Assembly (NCBI RefSeq): GCF_023721835.1
Contig: NZ_JAMKFE010000009.1
Coordinates: 124,001 to 188,000 of the forward strand
DNA: 64,000 nucleotides
Origin: Caldimonas mangrovi
GTDB taxonomy: Bacteria; Pseudomonadota; Gammaproteobacteria; Burkholderiales; Burkholderiaceae_C
Direction: 5' to 3'
Under the pieces are notes generated by a model. That model searched no databases and had not been told where the DNA came from. It was given only the letters and a program-made list of their open reading frames with translations. The stretch's first letter is position 1, and each line of letters opens with the position of its first letter. Both the position numbers and the translations under genes were made by a program. This document shows positions 2,087 to 5,525 of the stretch, in pieces.

Positions 2087-2866
2087 TCAGTTGCTCAGCA
2101 GCTCCACGCGCACGATCGCAAGCGACAGGTTGTCGCCGCCGCCGCGGGCCCGTTGCCGCGCCTTGCTGACGAGCATTTCGCTCGCATCGCGCGGCGGCAG
2201 TGTGTTCACGATGGCGCCCAGCTCGCGTGGACTGAAGTAGTGCCACAGGCCGTCGCTGCACGCCATCACGGTGTCGCCGATCTCGAGCCGGTCGATGTGG
2301 TGGAGGGTCAGCGGCGGATCCTGGAAGGTGCCGAGGCAGCCTGTCAGCAAGTTGGACTGGGGGTGCACATTGGCCTCGTCCTCGGTGATCTGGCCTTCCT
2401 CGACCAAGCGCTGCACATAGGAGTGGTCCTTCGTGCGGGTGACCATCTCGGCGCCGCGAAAGTGGTACACGCGCGAATCACCGGCGTGGATCACCTCGCA
2501 TTCTCGGTTGGGGTTGATCAAAAAGGCAGCCACCGTGCTGTGCGGCTCCTCTTCTGCGGTGATCGCCGTCAGCTTGATCATCAGGTGCGATTCGAGCACC
2601 AGCTGTTTCAGCGTCTCGGTCGGTTCATCGATCGACGGAGCGTAACGGTCGAACAGCTGCTTCGCTGTCAGAACCACCTGGTCCGAGGCCTTGCGCCCGC
2701 CGCTCTTGCCGCCCATGCCGTCGGCGACCACGGCCATCACGCAGCCCGGCACGCGCGGGTGTGCCAGCACCTCGACCTGGTCCTGCTGGTACATGCGGTC
2801 ACCGCGGTGTATGCCGGTGGCCGCCGTCAGGCGATAACCCTTCGAAACTTTGGAGGGGGCGTTCAT
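2087..2866 (-). CDS. PP2C-family serine/threonine protein phosphatase
   Basis: This is a 259-residue metal-dependent PPM/PP2C phosphatase of the bacterial Stp/PrpC type. The metal-binding motifs appear in order: RGDRMYQQDQ at 21-30 (a variant of the usual R-x-x-N-E-D), ADGMGG at 48-53, a GDSR motif at about 125, CSDGLW at about 195, and GGDNLSLAIV near the C-terminus. The start at 2866 is chosen because GGGGA sits at proper spacing from it; the ATG at 2872 is too close to that site. Such enzymes usually oppose a Ser/Thr kinase, but no kinase gene lies in this window, so the target is unknown. It is cytosolic, with no signal or membrane segment. The upstream region is a repeat element rather than coding. 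Confidence 0.88.
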   Translation of the reverse strand: MNAPSKVSKGYRLTAATGIHRGDRMYQQDQVEVLAHPRVPGCVMAVVADGMGGKSGGRKASDQVVLTAKQLFDRYAPSIDEPTETLKQLVLESHLMIKLTAITAEEEPHSTVAAFLINPNRECEVIHAGDSRVYHFRGAEMVTRTKDHSYVQRLVEEGQITEDEANVHPQSNLLTGCLGTFQDPPLTLHHIDRLEIGDTVMACSDGLWHYFSPRELGAIVNTLPPRDASEMLVSKARQRARGGGDNLSLAIVRVELLSN

Positions 2867-2936
2867 GAGCATTCCCCGCTGCGCCCGGCGAGGGGAGGTC
2901 CGGGTGGCGAGAACCGGAGATGGCCGAATGGCGCCG

Positions 2937-3012
2937 TGAAGCCGGCTTTGCCGGTTCGCCGGCACCGCCCCCTCGAGGGGGTGCACGAAGTGCGTAGGGG
3001 GTGGTTCATTTC
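2937..3012. repeat. GC-rich intergenic dyad element
   Basis: This is a compact run of dyads: GCCGGC TTT GCCGG, then the perfect palindrome CCCCCTCGAGGGGG (2968-2981), then GCAC GAA GTGC (2983-2993), then GGGGGTGGTTC. I have seen this arrangement as a recurrent extragenic element in Burkholderiales genomes, where it is often mis-called as a small protein on the reverse strand. That recollection cannot be tested here. It separates the divergent phosphatase and ydcH-like genes. Confidence 0.45.
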
Positions 3013-3036
3013 ATGCCCATGAAGATGGACCAAAAC

Positions 3037-3042
3037 TATAAT
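3037..3042 (+). promoter_or_regulatory. Possible -10 element upstream of the YdcH-like gene
   Basis: A perfect TATAAT hexamer lies 73 bases before the ATG at 3115, in an otherwise very GC-rich region. No convincing -35 hexamer is present at 16-18 bases. This is a weak promoter call. Confidence 0.35.
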
Positions 3043-3114
3043 CGACGCCACCCCCTGTTCCGCCCCCTCGGATTCCCGCCCGGGGCCCGCGCGGTTCCTC
3101 ACCCACCGGCTTCC

Positions 3115-3318
3115 ATGGACGAAAACCTGCATTCCCCGCAGCGGCGCCTGATCGAGCTGCGCATGGAGCACGCCGACCTAGACTGCCTCATCGACCAGAC
3201 CGAAGGCCAGCGCCCGCTGGACGAACTGTCATTGCGGCGCCTGAAGAAGCGGCGCCTGCTGCTGCGCGACCAGATCGCGCGCCTGGAGGCGCAACTGAAC
3301 CCGCAAGAGCCTGCATGA
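3115..3318 (+). CDS. YdcH family (DUF465) small coiled-coil protein
   Basis: This is a 67-residue charged protein of the DUF465/YdcH type. It is a single helical hairpin with RLIELRMEHADLDCLID followed by LSLRRLKKRRLLLRDQIARL, which is the family pattern of a first helix, a short acidic turn and a basic second helix ending in a leucine-rich heptad. No enzymatic residue is apparent, and the family function is not established. ATG 3115 is chosen because homology begins right after it; upstream codons look non-coding. Its TGA overlaps the ATG of the helicase gene (ATGA), so the two are probably translationally coupled. Confidence 0.7.
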   Translation: MDENLHSPQRRLIELRMEHADLDCLIDQTEGQRPLDELSLRRLKKRRLLLRDQIARLEAQLNPQEPA

Positions 3319-5525
3319 GCGCCGCCCGGCCGTCCGAAGGCGCGAGATCCCTCTCGGAGGGACAGGCGCAAAGCGCCCAGGGTGTCCCGACCAGCGCCGC
3401 CCGGCCGTCCGAAGGCGCGAGATCCCTCTCGGAGGGACAGGCGCAAAGCGCCCAGGGTGTTCCGACCAGCGCCGCCCGGCCGTCCGACGGCCCGCTGGTC
3501 CAGGCGGTCCTGGAGGCATTTTCGGCCGACGGCGCGCTGGCGCACGCCGACCCTGGCTACCGAGAGCGCGGCCAGCAGACCGAACTGGCCCGCGAGATCT
3601 CCCGGGCCGTCGAAGGCCGACGCCCGATCGTCGCCGAGGCCGGTACCGGCGTGGGCAAGACCTACGCCTACCTTGTGCCGGCGCTGTTGGCCGACGGGCG
3701 GGTGCTGGTGAGCACGGCCACCAAGAGCTTGCAGGATCAGCTGTTCCTGCGCGACCTGCCTCACGTGCGCGACGCGTTGCAGATGCCCGTGCAGCTGGCG
3801 CTGCTGAAGGGGCGCGGCAGCTACCTCTGCGTGCACCGGCTGCAGCAGGCCAGACAGTCTGCGATGCTGCCTGATCGCTTCGCCGTGCGCACGCTCGCCA
3901 AGATCGAGCAATGGTCGCAATCGACGCGCAGCGGCGACCTCGCGGAGCTCGAGGGGCTGGATGACCGCTCGCCTGTCATCCCACTGGTCACGTCGTCACG
4001 CGACAACTGTCTCGGCTCCGAGTGTCCCAGTTATCGAAACTGCCATGTGATGAAGGCCCGGCGAGACGCGCTCGCGGCCGACGTCGTGGTCGTCAACCAC
4101 CACCTCTTCTTCGCCGATCTGGCCCTGCGCGAGACCGGCATGGCGGAGCTGCTGCCGAACGTCGACGTGGTCATCTTCGACGAAGCGCACCAACTGGCCG
4201 AAGCCGGCGTGCAGTTTCTCGGCGCGACCCTCGGCACGGCGCAGGTGATCGACTTCGGCCGCGACATGCTGGCGGCGGGCCTCCAGCATGCCCGCGGGCT
4301 TGCGCCATGGTCGGACTTGGCCGGCGCCTGCGATCGCGCGGCGCGAGATCTGCGGCTGTCGGCTGCCGGCCCATTGCGCGACGTGCGCGGCATTGTCAAG
4401 CTGCGCTGGCAGGAACGCGCCGGGCGTCCAGAGTTTACTGACGGCTTGCAATCGCTGGCCGGTCAACTCCGGGAGGCGTCTGCCGCGCTCGAACGGGTCA
4501 GCGAGACAGCTCCCGACTTCCCCAAGCTGCAAGAGCGCGCCGACCAGTTGGTAGGCCGCGCAAGCGCCTTCCTGAAGGACGCACCCACCGGCTCGGTGCG
4601 CTGGATCGACATCAGCCCGCAGCAGGCACGGTTGGTCGAGTCACCGCTGGACATACGCGAGACCATGCGCGAGCAGATCGAGGCCCAGCCCAAGGCCTGG
4701 GTGTTCACCTCGGCGACGCTGGGCGACGACGAGAGGCTGAGCTGGTTCACCGAGCCGACGGGGCTGGACGACGCGCAGACGCTGCGCGTCGGCAGCCCTT
4801 TCGACTACCCGGAGCACGCGCGCGTCTATGTACCGCGCACCTTCCCGAAGCCGAACGAGCCGGGGCATCCGCGTGCAGTCGCCGCGTTGGCCGCCCGCCT
4901 GGCAGGAGCGCTCGGTGGGCGCACCTTCGTGCTGACGACCACCCTGCGCGCGCTGCAGCAGATCGGCGACCAGCTGCGTGAACGCTTCGAGGCCGAAGGC
5001 CAGCCGATCGACGTACTGGTGCAGGGCGCAGCGCCGAAGCGGCAGTTGATGCAGCGCTTTCTGGAGCAGCATGCCCCGGCTCACGCGGTGCATCTGAGCG
5101 CATGGCCCGGCGTTCCAGTGATCGCCGACGCTCAGCGCCGCGGTGCGGTGCTGGTCGGGTCCCAGACCTTCTGGGAAGGCATCGACGTGCCGGGCGATGC
5201 GCTGCAATGTGTCGTGATCGACAAACTGCCGTTTCCGCCACCGAACGACCCGCTGGTCGAGGCGCGGGTGAAGCGGCTGGAGAGCGAGGGCCGCAATGCG
5301 TTCAACGAGTATTTCGTCGCCGAGGCGGCGGTGGCATTGAAGCAGGGGGCGGGGCGGCTGATACGCACCGAGAGCGACCGCGGCCTGCTCGTGGTTTGCG
5401 ATCCGCGCATGGTGGGCATGGGCTATGGCCGCCGCCTGCTCGCGGCCTTGCCGCCGATGCAACGCCTCGCTTCGGAGGACGAGGCGCTCGAGTGGCTTAC
5501 CCGATTGCGCGAAGACGCTGCTTGA
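3315..5525 (+). CDS. dinG: DinG/YoaA-family ATP-dependent DNA helicase (XPD-like, Fe-S)
   Basis: This is a superfamily 2 helicase of 736 residues that is likely to unwind DNA during repair. Walker A GTGVGKT covers residues 110-116, and the Walker B DEAH box is at 289-292. Four cysteines (172, 232, 237, 243) lie where XPD-type helicases hold their 4Fe-4S cluster. The C-terminal helicase half contains FTSATLG, GSQTFWEGIDVPG and the motif VI region QGAGRLIRTESD. The first 58 residues are unusual: two exact 25-residue repeats and part of a third, encoded by 75-bp DNA repeats. The conserved domain starts near LVQAVLEAF. The start ATG overlaps the previous stop, and the 3' end is 6 bases from convergent bamD. 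It could equally be called YoaA. Confidence 0.9.
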   Translation: MSAARPSEGARSLSEGQAQSAQGVPTSAARPSEGARSLSEGQAQSAQGVPTSAARPSDGPLVQAVLEAFSADGALAHADPGYRERGQQTELAREISRAVEGRRPIVAEAGTGVGKTYAYLVPALLADGRVLVSTATKSLQDQLFLRDLPHVRDALQMPVQLALLKGRGSYLCVHRLQQARQSAMLPDRFAVRTLAKIEQWSQSTRSGDLAELEGLDDRSPVIPLVTSSRDNCLGSECPSYRNCHVMKARRDALAADVVVVNHHLFFADLALRETGMAELLPNVDVVIFDEAHQLAEAGVQFLGATLGTAQVIDFGRDMLAAGLQHARGLAPWSDLAGACDRAARDLRLSAAGPLRDVRGIVKLRWQERAGRPEFTDGLQSLAGQLREASAALERVSETAPDFPKLQERADQLVGRASAFLKDAPTGSVRWIDISPQQARLVESPLDIRETMREQIEAQPKAWVFTSATLGDDERLSWFTEPTGLDDAQTLRVGSPFDYPEHARVYVPRTFPKPNEPGHPRAVAALAARLAGALGGRTFVLTTTLRALQQIGDQLRERFEAEGQPIDVLVQGAAPKRQLMQRFLEQHAPAHAVHLSAWPGVPVIADAQRRGAVLVGSQTFWEGIDVPGDALQCVVIDKLPFPPPNDPLVEARVKRLESEGRNAFNEYFVAEAAVALKQGAGRLIRTESDRGLLVVCDPRMVGMGYGRRLLAALPPMQRLASEDEALEWLTRLREDAA
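3318..3489 (+). repeat. Tandem 75-bp repeats inside the dinG 5' coding region
   Basis: Copy 1 covers 3318-3392, copy 2 covers 3393-3467, and the first 22 or so bases of a third copy run to 3489. Copies 1 and 2 differ by one silent base (C at 3386, T at 3461). Each unit holds two small hairpins, TCCCTC TCG GAGGGA and GGCGC AAA GCGCC. Its length is a multiple of three, so it reads through in frame. Confidence 0.9.

Follow-up and report, generated by a model that had tools for sequence, protein, structure and literature searches.

Small repeats are usually thought to avoid genes. Published text brings the repeat described here closest to the Beta-proteobacterial repeat element (BRE) of Bordetella and Comamonadaceae, whose copies stand in tandem, with little or no spacer and in variable number, according to the sections consulted of the report on it (PMC3110155). 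The consulted part of PMC2817692 depicts REP/BIME sequences with RAYT, like our elements, as short, GC-rich, palindromic and interspersed, and as possibly moved in trans. Pneumococcal BOX elements resemble ours in being interspersed and in giving stops to upstream genes and starts to new open reading frames (ORFs; PMC3049150, excerpts). Rickettsia palindromic elements are small repeats too, and by entering genes in frame they give additional peptide to proteins that are otherwise unrelated (PMC10969869, excerpts), an effect that recurs below.

The window, the 64,000-nucleotide stretch of Caldimonas mangrovi DNA that was analysed, contains on its plus strand an ORF of 736 codons (3315-5525), whose product has Pfam Helicase_C_2 and DEAD matches and which we take to be DinG. 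The gene upstream on the same strand (3115-3318; DUF465, PF04325, E 4.9e-13) ends in a TGA (3316-3318) that shares bases with the dinG ATG at 3315, forming an ATGA overlap. At this overlap begin two 75-nt units (3318-3392 and 3393-3467) that differ by a single silent mismatch, GTC/GTT; a third is present for 27 nt (3468-3494), which match the full units at 93%. The array shares its reading frame with the ORF. TRF, run on the window, places 3318-3491 at the top of its four rows (period 75, 2.3 copies, score 334). Unit comparison and TRF thus agree with the original prediction that the DinG N-terminus consists of in-frame 75-bp repeats, two of them near-identical, followed by part of a third.

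When the register is set by the start codon, the plus-strand repeat units, each of 75 bp, are 3315-3389, which begins at the start codon, and 3390-3464, which has ACC in its place; the shortened third unit (3465-3491, plus strand), joined to dinG sequence, also carries ACC there. R1, a covariance model made from 14 copies and including the element ends, matches unit 1 at 3315-3388 (79.0 bits), unit 2 at 3390-3470 (91.1 bits, E 1e-19) and the third unit at 3471-3491, where model positions 7-27 are covered (17.2 bits, E 0.019). Codons 1 to about 57 of dinG are element-derived, a gain of 50 codons over the closest relative. Unit 1 contains, on the plus strand, hairpin A (3319-3343; GCGCC/GGCGC with inner CGG/CCG), predicted by folding and on its core part by family covariation; hairpin B (3348-3362; TCCCTC/GAGGGA), predicted by covariation and absent from the minimum-energy fold of unit 1 alone; and hairpin C (3365-3377; GGCGC/GCGCC), predicted by both. 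Hairpins had been foreseen in each unit, and that part stands, but they number three rather than two. A CAGGG at 3378-3382 (plus strand) sits where the family has a Shine-Dalgarno-like site, and a start codon at the usual spacing 3' of it is absent. An Rfam search of positions 2850-3650 at E up to 5 gave two matches, both far under the gathering score and off the array.

Between the upstream in-frame stop at 3039 and the GTG of the Walker A motif at 3651, ATG 3315 is the only in-frame ATG, GTG or TTG, so only the use of a rarer start codon, the first of them being CTG 3495, would leave the repeat untranslated. A true start beyond 3489 had been named as the case against a coding repeat, and inspection of the ORF found no fitting downstream ATG, GTG or TTG. 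We infer from the sequence that the array is translated as part of the helicase. A structure model of the product (22 homologues) has a mean pLDDT of 80.6, with residues 1-54 below 50 and the first helix starting at residue 60; by this model, the element-encoded tail of the helicase is probably disordered.

Relatives of dinG were examined at 89 loci, comprising 80 named loci and nine loci from eight congeners. R1 found no element at dinG in any of the 89, its one weak match (E 0.0065) lying elsewhere in locus L075, and none of the 82 loci in which a Walker A motif with at least 60 preceding codons was readable has an element-like peptide before that motif. The closest relative (L112 of genome G008, 82% identical) has the same ATGA overlap as dinG, bare and with the insert absent; at the position where the array ends it reads MTDRHPDDGPLVQAVLDAF vs MSAARPSDGPLVQAVLEAF in dinG, and after excision of 3318-3467 the alignment of the two is left with two 3-base gaps. 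L112 appears to be the empty-site counterpart of the dinG insert. The proposal that repetitive DNA has been turned into coding sequence at a start codon is upheld, given that the unit recurs in the genome, that dinG relatives are without it and that no later start fits.

The recurrence was established by a genome pattern search with a 27-mer core at up to 3 mismatches. The core occurs six times in the genome of the window (the own genome). Two occurrences lie in dinG and two ahead of a histidine kinase gene; the others mark the 3' ends of two genes, one cheA-like and one that precedes an araC-like gene (names assigned by eye). The reversed pattern has no match in this genome. The comparison of the unit with the whole genome that had been suggested thus places it outside dinG as well. 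The pair before the kinase gene (C1:88796-88951, minus strand; L002 1486-1641) is a period-75 tandem directly upstream of that gene, with a short ORF running from ATGAGC to an ATGA overlap with the kinase start and no recognised gene ending at the first ATGA; the cheA-like and pre-araC copies are partial and form the ends of genes. Another copy in the same genome (L299) is of the standard 74 bp and ordinary form. Within the window, 2936-3012 (plus strand) is weakly related to the element (R1, 19.4 bits, E 0.0057), its hairpins being CCCCCTC/GAGGGGG and TGCACGAAGTGCG; it lies between a divergent PP2C-type gene (2087-2986, minus strand) and the DUF465 gene.

The 27-mer occurs in one of eight congeners, with 3 mismatches, and at up to 2 mismatches in 3 of 399 family genomes, including one (G206) with a 75-bp tandem pair. 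The rarity that these counts suggested was dropped when covariance models showed the pattern to be too narrow: R1, at E of 1e-3 or lower, has matches in 214 of 299 family genomes, and in 110 of 141 genera, when 15 candidates are scored in each genome. A second, end-blind model (R2) was trained on 20 cores from which the RTGAGC ends, the AGGG site and the second start had been left out, these cores having first been found via R1, which included the ends. R2 has matches in 32 of 34 genomes chosen from the host genus and high scorers, with 8 copies in the own genome and a maximum of 88 in G206, and in 25 of 31 genomes behind named loci, including Rubrivivax pictus, Variovorax, Piscinibacter defluvii and Pseudorhodoferax. 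To judge from its named members, the host's family is Burkholderiaceae. In a sample across the order, R2 at E 1e-4 matched 7 of 160 genomes, namely the own genome and six labelled f3, f4, f30 and f44. Loci L324, L326, L328 and L331 of this sample share the element design; L325, L327 and L332, from f30 genomes, look like a different tandem hairpin repeat, with a period of about 79 bp. Plasmid searches gave matches in two Variovorax records only, with no annotation under the matches. Tandem arrays are common among the family's elements. Aquabacterium sp. A7-Y (G423), with 47 R2 matches, has a 60-62 bp tandem variant (L311-L313) in which the same first hairpin is followed by GGAGGT and RTGAGC.

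To describe where the elements lie, we used 100 R2 loci with flanks of about 700 bp, the best-ranked of the matches listed, taken one per tandem cluster; 21 of the 100 come from G206, and own-genome rows, a contig-start row, a row for a locus already covered and the lowest rows were left out. A codon score, for which 39,600 dinG codons served as training set, was used to call gene ends. Coding sequence flanks the element on both sides, in the element's direction, at 92 of the 100 loci, and RTGA stands at its 5' end at 90. By codon score, the first TGA of the element is the stop of the upstream frame at 78 loci and is not at 22. A downstream start (ATG, GTG or TTG) lies 10-14 nt beyond the core at 76 loci and is missing from this place at 24; upstream stop and downstream start occur together at 62. 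The base after the downstream start is A in 74 of the 76, and AGGG, AGGGG or AGGGGG stands 4-7 nt ahead of 71. When two sets of matches (119 and 74) were merged by identical sequence and flanks, 172 distinct elements remained, with RTGA at the 5' end in 151, at the 3' end in 133 and at both in 123; RTGA occurs 11-13 nt past the core 129 times, as against 0.78 per other position. The window has seven RTGA junctions with coding sequence on both sides, dinG's included, in its 64 kb; the class of site in which most copies lie thus covers well under 0.1% of that DNA. The original prediction of an extragenic-type repeat was right about the repeat and wrong about the setting: most examined copies occupy stop/start overlaps, where they read as a mini-ORF or as an extension.

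The lengths of the elements follow a reading-frame rule. In the 123 elements with RTGA at both ends, start-to-start length takes 13 values from 60 to 83 bp, of which 62, 65, 68, 71, 74, 77, 80 and 83 leave a remainder of 2 on division by 3 and account for 98 elements; 60, 63, 75 and 81, with remainder 0, account for 24, and 76, with remainder 1, for a single element, these being best-ranked matches, many from few genomes and related lineages. Counted once per genome and length, the three classes hold 43, 12 and 1 (41 genomes or records). Length varies in the 5' part, in the core and in the tail, and the variations compensate one another; shuffling of cores and tails among elements gives 38.6 elements with remainder 1 (minimum 23 in 5000 shuffles) vs the one observed. 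Read in the frame set by the first start, none of the 123 elements contains a stop, and the other two frames contain stops in 14 and 20. An element of 3n-1 nucleotides would accordingly be a small reading frame closed by a TGA that the next start overlaps, with RTGA overlaps at both ends, and one of 3n would be an N-terminal extension of the next protein. The encoded peptide is not conserved, the MSPARPPEGAHSLSEGQARSAKG and MSAARPLRRRSLPLGGTARSAKG types differing through compensated mid-element shifts. The constraint on the elements, as these alignments suggest, is readability and not peptide sequence.

The three hairpins are predicted from covariation across the family and not from single-copy energies. 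In the alignment of 20 cores, 94.4% of cells are paired, and 24 cells carry double changes vs 6.4 after shuffling, a number reached in none of 500 shuffles; the covariation score is 0.225 vs 0.072 for shuffled and at most 0.066 for slid versions. An earlier alignment of 14 copies gave a weaker signal (8 double-change cells vs 3.3; 4 of 500 shuffles). Folded alone, the dinG units do no better than their shuffles (z -1.13 and -0.50; whole array, -1.28), and seven single copies (z from +0.29 to -2.03) fold weakly better or no better than theirs.

Copies other than that of dinG also enter proteins. In G244, an element lies within the overlap between lptB and the preceding gene, an overlap that is bare in four congeners (GTGA in G311 and G370, ATGA in G163 and G038); in all five genomes the frame upstream of lptB is open for at least 215 codons and ends at the overlap TGA. 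The second start in G244 is ATC, and LptB, in which Pfam matches an ABC domain, begins MSTARPPEGAQLPLGGTARSAKGAQIATAATCGSRL. Here a different gene, in a different genus, offers a second example with empty sites, and it appears to have taken the same course as dinG. N-terminal extensions, with an upstream overlap and 5' start but no start in the usual 3' place, make up 7 of the 100 R2 loci; apart from the ABC domain of LptB, the names are ours by eye, and the proteins are presumably an ABC permease, a deacetylase-like, an LptE-like, a DctQ-like and a PqqD-like protein, LptB and one left unnamed. The last (L246) has ATGA 19 nt past the core, making an 81-bp element, and keeps its inner start. 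At 6 of the 100 loci (L234, L242, L282, L283, L286 and L295), the element is in frame inside a gene, in L282 with RTGA at both ends too. Two of these in-gene copies fall, going by names assigned by eye, in a histidine kinase ATPase domain and in a flavoprotein-like gene. Since most examined copies read either as mini-ORFs or as extensions in frame with the next gene, fusion with the protein downstream is a regular result.

We think it likely that these copies are interspersed elements of one family, GC-rich and with three hairpins each, which in Burkholderiaceae-type bacteria occupy RTGA overlaps between operon genes, and that one copy has been fused in frame to dinG. A typical copy, as the sequences show, keeps the upstream stop, has RTGA first, and closes with an AGGG-type Shine-Dalgarno-like site and a second RTGA at the start of the downstream gene; its length is 3n-1 or 3n. 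A ribosome finishing the upstream gene could restart at the element's first RTG and, in reading the element, open its hairpins; in a 3n-1 copy it would terminate on the TGA within the second RTGA, to restart on the downstream gene, and in a 3n copy it would continue into the downstream protein. The element would cost its operon little, because the ribosome passes through it by restart or by read-through. Both translation through the elements and their mobility are inferred from sequence. Counting against this reading are the 22 loci that lack the upstream stop, the 24 that lack the usual downstream start, the kinase, cheA-like and pre-araC copies of the own genome, and the weak folds of single copies. 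Candidate routes of spread are conversion of one copy by another and the action of a site-specific enzyme on the hairpins. We give even weight to the further suggestion that the elements are mobile mini-cistrons specific to ATGA/GTGA overlaps, which would rebuild the overlap at both ends, bring their own restart site, keep to 3n-1 or 3n, spread at almost no cost and occasionally supply new N-termini or loops, those of DinG and LptB among them.

At dinG, a 75-bp (3n) copy would have entered the DUF465/dinG ATGA overlap and doubled in tandem, for which step, from one unit to two, slippage is likely; the inner start codons would then have been lost (ACC at 3390 and 3465). A deletion or recombination near CCGA(A/C)GG of the third unit may have joined it to GACGGCCCGCTG, at about codon 8 of dinG, which would be why that unit ends where it does. 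In DinG, an element of 3n type, its inner starts lost, thus seems to have become part of a helicase.

Among the other explanations, it is a real possibility, if a somewhat doubtful one, that the repeat is the published BRE, in which case only the coding-side rules would be new. A search of the open-access literature for the same element yielded PMC3110155 as the only candidate (PMC2864759 was set aside as irrelevant), and the placement at RTGA and the frame rule were not found in that literature; from sequence and text, BRE is the nearest published description. As the consulted sections of PMC3110155 present it, BRE measures 75-91 bp, forms tandem arrays, has Comamonadaceae hosts, overlaps ORF ends slightly and has some coding copies, which speaks for this reading. 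The size range overlaps the start-to-start range found here (60-83 bp), which is partly shorter. According to the same sections, BRE copies are for the most part intergenic and in some cases lie between convergent genes; the text gives neither start/stop placement nor a frame rule nor a Shine-Dalgarno-like site, BRE and our elements being compared by description. The intergenic trait is not seen here, 78 of 100 loci lying in stop/start overlaps by codon score, although most of an element so placed would be labelled intergenic by an annotator. Polaromonas JS666 heads the BRE list in those sections, whereas R2 has 0, 0 and 5 matches in three Polaromonas genomes, JS666 not among them. The two families may overlap, as far as descriptions can be compared.

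We consider it rather unlikely that the element is an intercistronic control element selected by the host, whose hairpins and coupled mini-ORF tune or protect the downstream message and which is retained for that function rather than tolerated as a selfish repeat. The covariation of its stems, the AGGG-type site at a fixed distance and the frame rule would suit a working RNA element, as would the BRE-derived transcripts of Bordetella in the consulted sections of PMC3110155, provided that BRE is the same family; but copies precede unrelated genes, form tandem arrays and vary among congeners at one junction, some lie in frame within genes, and their peptide is unconserved. That the elements are REP/BIME of the RAYT-mobilised kind is very improbable. 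They are short, GC-rich, palindromic, interspersed and often tandem, as such sequences are, yet the RAYT domain PF01797 was not found in the own genome, is lacking in G206, which has the most copies, and occurs in 5 of 13 element-bearing genomes searched vs 9 of 11 without detected elements, a distribution on which we reject a link to RAYT. REPs are tied to RAYT genes and intergenic sites (PMC2817692, consulted part), whereas the elements here have no such link and sit in gene overlaps. That the array is nothing but native dinG N-terminal sequence duplicated by slippage, with neither a mobile nor an interspersed element involved, is scarcely credible and untenable as a full account, for although units one base apart imply that the last doubling was recent or homogenised, the unit stands elsewhere in the genome, is widespread in the family and is in no dinG relative examined.

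If the preferred reading, an overlap-dwelling element family with one copy fused to dinG, is true, repeats fixed at a four-base gene overlap and bound to a length rule would be a clear case of repeats shaped by translation. The question of how a repeat becomes protein would also become directly testable, dinG and lptB being occupied genes with empty relatives. For annotation there is a warning, in that start codons and N-termini adjoining these elements are easily miscalled.

Pneumococcal BOX differs from these elements in being a composite of boxA, boxB and boxC; its ORFs are without good Shine-Dalgarno candidates, and the excerpted text of PMC3049150 describes no fixed RTGA placement. The Rickettsia palindromic elements are about 150 bp and lie within ORFs (PMC10969869, excerpts), whereas ours occupy RTGA overlaps with lengths of 3n-1 or 3n. 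Compared by description, they are nonetheless nearest in effect: in-frame insertion into unrelated proteins, as known from Rickettsia, is found here in six in-gene and seven N-terminal cases among 100 loci, in addition to the empty sites of dinG and lptB.
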